Shown here: positions 12,282 to 15,871 of the stretch, one piece after another
How the letters are laid out: every line of letters starts with the position of its first letter
How positions within the stretch are numbered: the first letter of the stretch is position 1
From: Candidatus Phycosocius bacilliformis
Lineage (GTDB): Bacteria; Pseudomonadota; Alphaproteobacteria; Caulobacterales; Aquidulcibacteraceae
Direction of reading: 5' to 3'
Assembly (NCBI RefSeq): GCF_003112735.1
Contig: NZ_BFBR01000003.1
Coordinates: forward strand, 1 to 64,000
DNA: 64,000 nt
Notes under the pieces: model-generated
The model's database searches: none
Seen by the model: the letters and a program-made list of their open reading frames with translations, nothing else
What the model was told of the DNA's origin: nothing
Translations under genes and position numbers: made by a program

Positions 12282-12301
12282 AGGCAGGCCGTGGCCTGCC
12301 T
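12282..12301. terminator. hairpin between the convergent flgH and dksA stops
   Basis: AGGCAGGCC, a GT loop and GGCCTGCCT form a 9-bp perfect GC-rich stem exactly between the two convergent stop codons. There is no T-run on either side, so termination may be weak or factor-assisted. Position favours a bidirectional 3'-end structure. Confidence 0.55.
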
Positions 12302-12735
12302 CAATCGTCGCGATAAATGCGCTCGGAACGCTCATGCCGCTCTTGGGCTTCCAAGCTCAAAGTAGCCACTGGTCGGGCCATGAGGCGACCGAGTGAAATG
12401 GGTTCACCTGTCTCATCGCAATAGCCGTAGGACCCATCATCAATACGGCGCAAAGCGGCATCAATTTTGGAGATCAATTTGCGCTGACGATCGCGCGCAC
12501 GCAACTCAATGCTTTTGTCGGTTTCAGCTGACGCCCGGTCGGCCACATCCGGCAGAGAGGCGGTCTCGGTCTGCAAATGGGAAAGCGTGTCCTTGGAATC
12601 AGCCAGGATCTGCTCTTTCCAGTCCTCAAGCTTTTTGCGGAAATATTCCCGCTGACGCTCGTTCATGAACTCTTCGTCGTCGGAAGGCACATAGTCACTC
12701 GGAACATTGGTGTTTGGCACAACAATCGCGGTCAT
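12301..12735 (-). CDS. dksA: RNA polymerase-binding transcription factor DksA (degenerate zinc finger)
   Basis: 144 residues. DksA enters the RNA polymerase secondary channel and works with ppGpp. The coiled-coil tip motif DxxDxA is intact (Asp63, Asp66, Ala68), so the functional tip is present. The C-terminal globular part keeps the fold (GSYGYCDETGEPISLGRLMARP), but only one of the four zinc cysteines remains: Cys106 is present, while Thr109, Ser127 and Ala130 stand at the others. DksA proteins with reduced cysteine sets are known in alphaproteobacteria and as Pseudomonas DksA2. The neighbourhood next to flgH is as in Caulobacter. Confidence 0.95.
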   Translation of the reverse strand: MTAIVVPNTNVPSDYVPSDDEEFMNERQREYFRKKLEDWKEQILADSKDTLSHLQTETASLPDVADRASAETDKSIELRARDRQRKLISKIDAALRRIDDGSYGYCDETGEPISLGRLMARPVATLSLEAQERHERSERIYRDD

Positions 12736-12951
12736 GACGTACCCCTTGTTTCTGCTTGTGATCGATCAACTTTATGCTCGACAATATCGCGCTATAGTGA
12801 AGCCTGAAGAGGCCCGCAAGGCGGCACAAACACTCACCCTTCCACCTGACTGCTAAAACCACTGTCCAACAGGTGGTCATGACAGCGGTCTCAACCTGGC
12901 CTGACGACGGTCGTCTCGGACCGGGATGAAGGCTGAACTCAAGAAAGGTTT
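12736..12951. other. dksA upstream region
   Basis: No gene seen. It contains two weak inverted repeats (CCACCTG ... CAGGTGG at ~12842-12877 and GACGAC-G-GTCGTC near 12902) between dksA and the repeat array. Confidence 0.4.
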
Positions 12952-13411
12952 GTCATCCCGGACGGCGAAGCCGATCCGGGATCGTGTGCCGCACATGCGC
13001 AAAGAGGTCCCCGCACTGCGCTACGCTTCGGTGGTGATGACATCGTTTGGAGTTGGTTGCATTTATAATTGGGTGTCATCCCGGACGGCGGTAGCCGATC
13101 CGGGACCTTGTGCCGCACGTGCGCGAGGAGGTCCCCGCTCTGCGCTTCGCTTCGGCGGGGATGACATCGTTTAATTAAGTCAGCCAAAAAAACACGCTGT
13201 CCTCCCGGACGGCGTTAGCCGATCCGGGATCGTGTGCCGCACATGCGCGAGGAGGTCCGGTTATGCGCTGAGCTTCGGTGGGGATGACATCGTTTAATTA
13301 AGTCAGCCAATAAAACACGCTGTCATCCCGGACGGCGAAGCCGAGCCGGGATCTCATTGCGCACTTGCGTATGAAGGTCCCCGCTCTGTGCTACGCTCCG
13401 GCGGGGATGAC
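12952..13411 (+). repeat. tandem array of four palindromic repeat units, period ~123 bp
   Basis: Units begin at 12952, 13075, 13199 and 13322. Each is a ~90-bp two-hairpin palindromic unit (GTCATCCCGGACGGCG... to ...GGCGGGGATGACA). They are separated by a ~33-bp linker that is also conserved (ATCGTTTAATTAAGTCAGCC then AATAAAACACGCT in the later copies). The left hairpin is best conserved. The centre varies by a few bases, and the right half decays in units 1 and 3. Conserved linkers imply tandem duplication of the ~123-bp module rather than independent insertions. Confidence 0.85.
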
Positions 13412-13440
13412 ACGGCTTTTCTTAGGTATTTCGTCTGGAA

Positions 13441-13473
13441 GCGGTTTGGTGCCCTTTCTGGTCACCAAACCGC
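13441..13473. repeat. perfect 11-bp inverted repeat (left flank of nested palindromic element)
   Basis: GCGGTTTGGTG (13441-13451), an 11-base loop and CACCAAACCGC (13463-13473). The inner sequence TTTGGTG/CACCAAA is shared with the inverted repeat at 13597-13629, so the two look related. Confidence 0.8.
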
Positions 13474-13489
13474 AAACTCAATTGTTTCT

Positions 13490-13580
13490 GCGACATCGGG
13501 GTGGTCAAGTGCGCAGCTTTGCTGCGTCGCGATGCGATCGGTTTTCAAAGAAAACCGACACTTGACGACCCAGATGACGC
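13490..13580. other. long stem opening into a junction of three perfect hairpins
   Basis: Arms 13490-13511 and 13559-13580 pair at 19 of 22 positions; the mismatches are isolated single bases. The innermost 8 bp (GTCAAGTG/CACTTGAC) are perfect. The enclosed 47 bases are fully used by three consecutive perfect hairpins: CGCAGC-TTT-GCTGCG (13512-13526), TCGC-GAT-GCGA (13527-13537) and TCGGTTTTC-AAA-GAAAACCGA (13538-13558). No unpaired base remains between helices, so the unit forms a closed four-way junction. It is not a tRNA: all loops are three bases and there is no T-loop motif. It could act as a structured RNA, as folded single-stranded DNA for a recombinase or Rep protein, or be part of a miniature mobile element. 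Confidence 0.8.
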
Positions 13581-13596
13581 GCTCAAACTCGCACTT

Positions 13597-13629
13597 CCGT
13601 TTTGGTGAAACACAGGTTTCACCAAACGG
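13597..13629. repeat. inverted repeat (right flank of nested palindromic element)
   Basis: CCGTTTTGGTGAAAC, an ACA loop and GTTTCACCAAACGG pair over 14 bp with a single bulged T. Together with the repeat at 13441 it brackets the central junction structure with similar CGGTTTGGTG-type arms. Confidence 0.75.
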
Positions 13630-13662
13630 TTCTGAGTAGAAAGGCCACACTCACAATAGCCT

Positions 13663-13690
13663 GTCATCCCGGACGGCGCAGCCGATCCGG
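13663..13690 (+). repeat. half unit of the palindromic repeat
   Basis: Only the left hairpin half (GTCATCCCGGACGGCGCAGC then CGATCCGG) is present, ending shortly before the mutase stop codon. Confidence 0.75.
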
Positions 13691-13708: not shown

Positions 13709-15871
13709 TCACCCTACGTCCTGATAGCCCAAGCGGCCACTCAATGTGCCGATCAGATCCACCACCGCTTCGCCAATCACTGTCCCCGGCAGATAAACCG
13801 CACTGGCCCCCATTTGTTTGAGGATGGCGACATCATCGGGCGGGATGACCCCGCCAATCACAATCATGATATCGCTGCGGCCTTGGGCAGACAGGGCTTG
13901 GCGCAGGGCGGGCAACAGGGTCAAATGGCCTGCAGCCAGCGAGGATACACCAATGACATGGACATTATTGTCGATGGCCTGGCGGGCGGCTTCTTCCGGT
14001 GTGGCAAATAGCGGGCCGATATCCACCTCAAAGCCCAGATCGCTGAAAGCCGTGGCGATGACCTTCTGGCCCCGGTCGTGGCCGTCCTGGCCCATTTTGG
14101 CAACGAGGATTTTCGGCGGGCGGCCGTCGGCTTTGGTAAAGGCGGCAATCGCCTCCCGGGCTTTGGCAAGAACTGGGTTAGAGGGATCAGCTTCGCGGGT
14201 ATAGACACCTGAATTGATCCGAATTTCGGCCTTATGGCGTCCAAAAACATCTTCCAGAGCGAGTGAAATCTCCCCCACTGTGGCTTTGGCACGCGCTGCC
14301 TTGATCGCTAAATCAAGCAGATTGCCCGACCCATCACGGGCCGCAGCAGTCAACGCCGCACAGGCTGCATCCACGTCAGCCTGACTGCGTTCAGCCTTGA
14401 GACGTTTGAGCTTGTCGAGCTGTTTCATGCGCACAGCCGTATTGTCGACCTTGAGGACCGGCACGTCCTCAATTTCATCGAGCGGGAATTTGTTGACCCC
14501 CACCACCGTCTGCATGCCTGTATCAATCCGGGCCTGGGTTCGGGCTGCGGCTTCCTCGATCCGCAATTTTGGCAAGCCCTGTTCGATGGCTTTGGCCATG
14601 CCGCCCAAGGCTTCAACCTCTTCAATATGCTTCCAAGCCCGCTCAGCCAGATCCGCCGTCAGCTTTTCAACATAATAACTTCCCCCCCACGGATCGATCG
14701 GGCGGGAAAAGCCGGCTTCTTCCTGCAGAATCAATTGGGTGTTGCGGGCGATGCGGGCGGAAAAATCCGTCGGCAACGCCAGTGCTTCATCCAGACTATT
14801 GGTGTGCAGACTTTGGGTATGGCCATGGGTGGCCGCCATTGCCTCGACACACGTGCGCACCGCATTGTTAAACACATCTTGGGCGGTCAGGCTCCAGCCC
14901 GAGGTTTGGCTGTGAGTCCGCAAGGCCAAGGACTTCTCGCTCTTGGGATTGAACTGCTTGACCAAGCGCGCCCACAAAGCCCGCCCCGCACGCATCTTGG
15001 CGACTTCCATGAAGAAATTCATGCCGATCGCCCAGAAGAAGGACAAACGAGGGGCAAAGGCATCAATGTCGAGGCCGACGGCCAATCCGGCGCGAATATA
15101 GTCCAAGCCATCGGCCAAAGTGTAGGCCAATTCCAGATCCGCTGTCGCGCCAGCTTCCTGCATGTGATAGCCAGAGATGGAGATAGAATTGAATTTCGGC
15201 ATGTTTTGACTGGTGAAGGCAAAAATATCCGAAATGATCCGCATGCTCGGCCCGGGCGGGTAGATATAGGTGTTGCGGACCATGAATTCTTTTAAGATGT
15301 CATTCTGGATGGTGCCGGACAATTTGTCCGGGCTGACGCCTTGTTCCTCTGCGGCCACGACATAAAGCGCCAGAATGGGCAAGACCGCGCCATTCATCGT
15401 CATCGACACGCTCATCTGATCCAGCGGTATGCCCTCAAACAACGTGCGCATGTCGTAAATGCTGTCGATGGCAACCCCGGCCATGCCAACATCGCCCAGC
15501 ACACGAGGGTGGTCGCTGTCATAGCCACGATGTGTTGCCAAATCGAAGGCGACCGACAGGCCCTTTTGGCCGGCAGCCAGATTGCGCCGATAAAAGGCGT
15601 TTGAATCCTCTGCCGTCGAAAAGCCCGCATATTGGCGGATTGTCCAAGGCTGCTGGACATACATGGTCGGATAGGGTCCGCGGATATTGGGGGCGATGCC
15701 CGGCAGTCCGTTGAGGTGATCAAGACCGTTAAGATCGGCGGGCCCATAGACCGGCTTGACCATCACGTCTTCAGGTGTCCGCCACAAAGTGGTTGGCGTG
15801 GCCACATCAGGACCACCCGCGACAAGGGGTACCCCCAAATCCAGCTCGGCAAAATTGGGTAGCTTGCTCAT
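13709..15871 (-). CDS. mutB: methylmalonyl-CoA mutase large (catalytic) subunit
   Basis: 720 residues, the full length for the family. It interconverts methylmalonyl-CoA and succinyl-CoA using adenosylcobalamin, in propionate and branched-chain/odd-chain catabolism. The N-terminal TIM barrel carries [34 protein letters not shown] and [15 protein letters not shown]. The C-terminal B12 domain carries the base-off motif DxHxxG (Asp596, His598) and the downstream GVSSLAAGH and IVIGGVIPP segments. Its ATG overlaps the small-subunit stop by 4 bp. No MeaB chaperone or epimerase gene is adjacent. Confidence 0.97.

Follow-up and report, generated by a model that had tools for sequence, protein, structure and literature searches.

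A dispersed palindromic DNA repeat with a predicted four-way-junction apex and a core in two orientations in the order of Caulobacter crescentus

The described systems closest to the locus studied here are bacterial MITEs such as ERIC, RUP, Correia and QMITE, with which it shares the size range of 100–200 bp, non-coding and mostly intergenic copies, terminal inverted repeats, many copies and a stable hairpin fold (PMC2229807, PMC10969869). The CIR repeats of Caulobacter and other alphaproteobacteria, likewise intergenic and palindromic, are outlined in PMC2229807 as units of ~110 bp in which a linker connects two hairpin arms and a loop contains GANTC (Chen & Shapiro 2003). A resemblance of another kind exists with the small hairpin-associated inversions of chloroplast DNA, where, in the outline of PMC6342102, a segment flanked by palindromic arms repeatedly undergoes inversion in place. 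REP and REPIN sequences (RAYT, Y1 HUH) are dispersed extragenic palindromes as well, with hairpins in inverted pairs. The terminal repeat of AAV-type parvoviruses carries small perfect triloop hairpins in a longer palindromic stem, and its inner part occurs as flip and flop.

The locus lies in the window, i.e. the whole stretch of 64,000 nucleotides from Candidatus Phycosocius bacilliformis that was analyzed. A literature search, with subscription papers mostly outside its reach, returned no description of the element, and its novelty is provisional. Apparently it represents an undescribed repeat family across Caulobacterales, the order containing Caulobacter crescentus.

Architecture and setting of the element

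The element sits between mcmA and a dksA-like gene, behind an array of a different repeat (Table 1). Its center is a 91-nt unit, an imperfect 22-bp stem (P1) whose apex is a closed four-way junction of three perfect hairpins (P2–P4), each with a 3-nt loop. An earlier note on this DNA had described 19 paired positions out of 22 in the P1 arms, three perfect triloop hairpins and zero unpaired bases between the helices, and these statements were confirmed base by base. It had also suggested a check with RNAfold, which for positions 13441–13629 returned exactly this stem with its three hairpins at −96.5 kcal/mol, compared with −54.7 ± 4.0 for shuffled sequences (z −10.5; 0 of 200 as stable). Folded as single-stranded DNA, the 91-nt unit reached −36.9 (z −9.2), and again none of 200 shuffles was as stable. 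In the consensus of the copies the P1 arms have one conserved mismatch, 13503 × 13567, which is G·G here and A·G elsewhere; the remaining two mismatches of the window copy are private or found in few copies.

The outer hairpins, the array to the left and the half unit to the right were all found as previously described. The genus consensus of the termini is ACTTRGAA / RTCTGGAA, and these sequences stand in inverted order at the two ends of the element, where a TTTGGTG..CACCAAA hairpin follows each of them. An intrinsic terminator was considered and rejected, as neither outer hairpin has a T-run behind it on its own strand.

Table 1 Features of the element and its surroundings (positions in the window)
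Feature	Position	Strand	Remarks
dksA-like gene	12301–12735	minus	name from reading the translation
TGTCATCCC...GGGATGACA repeat array	12951–13412	+	separate repeat family flanking most copies in own genome; ~92-nt units, 124-nt spacing
Left terminal inverted repeat GTCTGGAAGCG	13433–13443	+	conservation edge between copies; inverse of right end
Left outer hairpin TTTGGTG...CACCAAA	13441–13473
Left linker	13474–13489		consensus ...CTCAATTGTT; indicates outer orientation
91-nt unit	13490–13580		P1 to P4
P1 5' arm	13490–13511		mismatch position 13503
P2 hairpin	13512–13526		CGCAGC-TTT-GCTGCG; 6 bp, triloop
P3 hairpin	13527–13537		TCGC-GAT-GCGA; 4 bp, variable triloop
P4 hairpin	13538–13558		TCGGTTTTC-AAA-GAAAACCGA; 9 bp, variable triloop; CGG/CCG -> CCG/CGG in related copies
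P1 3' arm	13559–13580		mismatch position 13567
Right linker	13581–13596		consensus GCTCAAACTCG...
Right outer hairpin	13597–13629
Right terminal inverted repeat CGGTTCTGAGT	13627–13637	+
Half unit of the repeat array	13662–13690
mcmA	13709–15871	minus	name from reading the translation

The array belongs to a high-copy repeat family of the genus, and some of its copies elsewhere (loci L195 and L059) have GACTC/GAGTC, i.e. GANTC, and are CIR-like. Another palindromic repeat (AATTTCTTGATTTAAACGCGCAACTTGGTTC...) is inserted in the P3 region of subfamily-B copies of the element (L195 near 400–520, L052 near 1600–1690). In UKL13-1 (G003), a non-coding repeat of 500–700 bp lies near many copies, often at a distance of 50–100 bp (L131 1745–2393, L134 716–1357, L195 and other loci of this genome). 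This repeat may be a large structured element. It also occurs in other Aquidulcibacter species, and none was seen at the own-genome loci compared. Deletion derivatives of the element occur as well: L035 642–689 is a single outer hairpin with both termini, while L192 is truncated and without most of the core.

Distribution and conservation of the paired shape

BLAST finds ~30 matching places in the own genome (3.33 Mb, 21 contigs), a lower bound because the assembly breaks inside the element; the contig ends C1:701368 and C4:301980 stop at the same position within it. The earlier note had held that no known repeat explains the fold. In agreement with this, Rfam gave no match above the gathering threshold for the locus and its relatives (sub-threshold hits were miRNA-like hairpins, and a tRNA elsewhere), but the element is itself a repeat. 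It is present in 9 of 9 Aquidulcibacter genomes searched, and 52 other genomes of the family and order gave no match at BLAST sensitivity. When 84,980 species were scanned for a 20-base signature, 60 stretches matched, almost all of them labelled as Aquidulcibacter or as unnamed Hyphomonadaceae or alphaproteobacteria. A MAG contig labelled Maricaulis salignorans (L065, CAMDDL010000050.1) has the element and flanks in common with G002, a genome assigned to the genus studied here; the MAG is probably mislabelled, and Maricaulis was rejected as a second host genus. The plasmid collection contained one 38-base match, by chance.

A covariance model built from the 91-nt unit was used for searches at the level of the genus, the order and the Alphaproteobacteria. 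Copies were found genus-wide, including a subfamily with different arms, a 3-bp P2 and a 5×5 internal loop in the stem, in which the junction is the same. Another genus of the family (G013) gave 12 matches at E<=1. Across the order, 26 of 398 genomes matched, representing 7 genera with the own genus counted, with up to 11 copies in one genome (G110). As a specificity control, ~380 genomes of other alphaproteobacterial orders yielded zero matches at E<=1e-5. Copy number varies widely. The copies lie mostly between ORFs according to a crude scan with stop-to-stop ORFs, in which 15 of 60 “inside ORF” calls are probably spurious frames across repeat arrays.

The paired shape is conserved far better than the sequence. 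In the genus alignment, 96.2% of cells are paired, two-sided change occurs in 18 of 40 pairs, and 57 two-sided cells compare with 12.7 in shuffles (0 of 500). The order-wide alignment has 95.3% of cells paired (66.3% when shuffled), 844 two-sided cells against 264 expected from shuffles and few single-sided changes, figures that are inflated toward structure because the alignment was fitted to the model and contains both strands of many copies as rows. In an unfitted check on two genomes of other genera (G110 and G190), the 20-nt arms outside TCAAGG matched their own partner at 84% on average and the partners of other copies at 49%. Likewise, the arms of L199, L201 and L235 are 100% self-complementary and quite different in sequence from each other. 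Compensatory changes in homologues, which the earlier note had named as a check on a conserved fold, are thus strongly evident. What is kept across the order is the three-hairpin junction with zero linkers, TCAAG/CTTGA and the CGC..GCG of P3. Divergent copies in other genera have little common sequence apart from TCAAG/CTTGA, and their origin could be partly convergent.

Copying within the palindrome would help to restore complementarity, so that the covariation need not all be due to selection on function. Taken further, the element might be an old palindromic repeat kept by template-switch correction, without selection or present mobility. Arms that are perfectly complementary though different between copies, the few single-sided changes and orientation-free cores agree with a purely mutational origin of this kind. 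However, correction alone leaves the constant three-hairpin zero-linker junction, TCAAG/CTTGA and the CGC..GCG of P3 unexplained, and the same holds for the many intergenic copies. We consider this explanation unlikely.

In RNA helices G·U is tolerated and A·C is not, and structured RNAs have many G·U pairs as a rule. Here, wobble cells amount to ~1% and G·T is barely more common than A·C, with 13 versus 6 cells in the genus and 25 versus 19 in the order (best strand only), among about 1,600–1,700. Due to this near equality, the match of both strands to the model and the free orientation of the core, pairing in DNA or copying that restores the palindrome is favored over selection on a transcript. 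Strong covariation alone does not imply RNA, and the balance of G·T and A·C in these sequences leads us to favor pairing that would act in DNA, which weakens the RNA reading. A functional structured RNA, either a small RNA or a 3'-UTR element whose junction was selected as RNA and whose copies spread secondarily, was among the candidates of the earlier note. It would be in line with the very stable fold, the strong covariation, the predominance of triloops and the neighboring long ORFs, 43 of which point toward the element and 26 away by crude ORF calls. Nevertheless, it is not favored and seems to us rather improbable, because beyond the G·T counts the fold is near-symmetric on both strands, copy number differs strongly between genomes and Rfam is without a match.

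Orientation of the core

Of the 26 full copies in the own genome, 16 have the core in one orientation relative to the outer hairpins and 10 have it in the opposite one. The core sequences are without orientation structure, the nearest neighbor being of the same class in 14 of 26 (p = 0.46), and the outer parts cluster by orientation class (21 of 26, p = 0.008). Over 63 nt, 5 of the 10 inverted cores have a perfect (100%) match among the non-inverted ones. Identical cores in both orientations indicate that the change of orientation is recurrent, although some of the identity could be coincidence since cores differ mainly in two short loops.

Species were compared for synteny by tblastx with repeats masked, the unmasked version being swamped by repeats. 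At 13 presumed orthologous intergenic loci, with matching unique flanks and the element on both sides, the outer orientation agrees in every case and the core orientation differs at 8. Relative to neighboring genes the outer orientation is unbiased (22 versus 21 toward, 16 versus 10 away), and its agreement therefore suggests shared insertions; at some of the loci, independent insertion into the same intergenic region is possible. At several of them the flipped core is also of another sequence subfamily (P3 loop AA versus GAC), so that inversion in place is no likelier there than replacement via the near-symmetric arms.

We propose that the core may be inverted by arm-to-arm recombination or template switching. 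Alternatively, ectopic conversion might replace the core, and the near symmetry of the arms would let this happen in both directions. In most inverted copies the conserved mismatch remains with the outer part (C·C, C·T), and in 6 of them it moves with the core (A·G, G·G). The exchange thus has no constant position, and this speaks against a site-specific recombinase that uses a single crossover site. Such a recombinase would be needed for an invertible switch that flips the core at GTCAAGTG/CACTTGAC sites and controls the neighboring genes. A switch would agree with 10 of the 26 own copies, in which the segment between the arms is exactly inverted and the mismatch stays outside it, but the exchange outside the mismatch in the 6 copies is at odds with a fixed crossover site. 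Furthermore, dozens of unlinked copies lie beside unrelated genes, and in the near-symmetric core no promoter was identified. We hold a switch to be extremely unlikely.

Mobility and comparison with known systems

Scattered copies with target-site duplications had been named in the earlier note as support for a mobile element. Dozens of intergenic copies were found, but no duplication was recognized at the element ends seen. None of the loci compared showed a clean empty site; around mcmA, the search in other species met a different gene order or contigs that stop in repeats, and in UKL13-1 this region holds other insertions. Searching the own genome at BLAST sensitivity for an autonomous relative gave no pair of element ends 1–3 kb apart that encloses a gene. 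With neither a target duplication nor an empty site demonstrated, transposition itself is what we infer. Many own-genome copies lie between TGTCATCCC repeats with shared linkers, and some of the spread may therefore be co-duplication with the array instead of transposition.

Y1_Tnp (PF01797) was found in 0 of 10 genomes, and the controls of this search did give matches. The search for Y2_Tnp in 7 genomes gave a certain match only in UKL13-1, a weak partial one in the own genome and none in 5, and the control genomes gave no match. As far as Y1 and Y2 go, the Rep/relaxase-type HUH site considered in the earlier note is unsupported. As an ssDNA substrate of an HUH enzyme (REP/RAYT Y1, Y2 transposase, Rep or relaxase), the element would resemble a parvovirus terminal repeat with flip/flop. 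The junction of small perfect triloop hairpins within a long stem, the two orientations of the core and the strong ssDNA fold would suit this role; the absence of Y1 from all genomes searched and the sporadic occurrence of Y2 make it very improbable.

In conclusion, the element is real, recurrent and order-wide, the most likely reading being a palindromic, non-autonomous DNA repeat whose core can take either orientation. Of the candidates in the earlier note, the miniature mobile or dispersed element is the best-supported, given dozens of intergenic copies, terminal inverted hairpins and genus-wide occurrence. The element is probably an intergenic, dispersed, non-autonomous and MITE-like palindrome of ~205 bp. 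On the same reading, terminal inverted repeats and a pair of outer hairpins enclose a long imperfect palindrome with a linker-free four-way junction at its apex. Copies of this MITE-like element could be spread by an enzyme in trans, or by recombination along with neighboring repeats, and the folded DNA (a cruciform, or a hairpin in ssDNA) may be the form that is recognized or the form that survives. It could be speculated, with low probability, that the element is mobile DNA recognized by shape. The folded four-way junction would then be the substrate of a putative enzyme, junction resolvase-like or a hairpin-processing transposase, and the flip/flop of the core would be a by-product of a hairpin intermediate, as in parvovirus terminal repeats. 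Through its conserved shape and flipping core the element offers many natural replicates per genome, and two open questions thereby become testable. One is whether recognition by DNA shape exists for some bacterial elements, the other how dispersed repeats are molded by palindrome-mediated inversion and correction.

As in MITEs, we found many short, non-coding, mostly intergenic copies with terminal inverted repeats. Target-site duplications, 5'TA termini and a parent IS were not found for the element, and it differs from MITEs in the linker-free four-way junction at its apex, the core in both orientations and the outer hairpins at both ends. Classification as a CIR repeat, a family known here by its description in PMC2229807, was rejected: measured against that description, the anatomy differs in that the element has its parts nested around a single palindrome whose apex is a junction, no GANTC is conserved in the copy alignment, and the flanking TGTCATCCC array is more CIR-like. 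Assignment to REPIN/RAYT was rejected too, as the element is far larger and nested and none of 10 element-carrying genomes has a Y1 gene. With the AAV terminal repeat, the small triloop hairpins in a stem and the two inner orientations form an analogy of behavior and not membership. In contrast to it, the element is chromosomal, has a four-way instead of a three-way junction and is not known to be accompanied by a virus or Rep gene; a change of orientation by recombination appears more likely than the AAV-type route. Finally, in the chloroplast inversions as outlined in PMC6342102 a plain loop inverts, whereas the inverted part of the element consists of three conserved hairpins.
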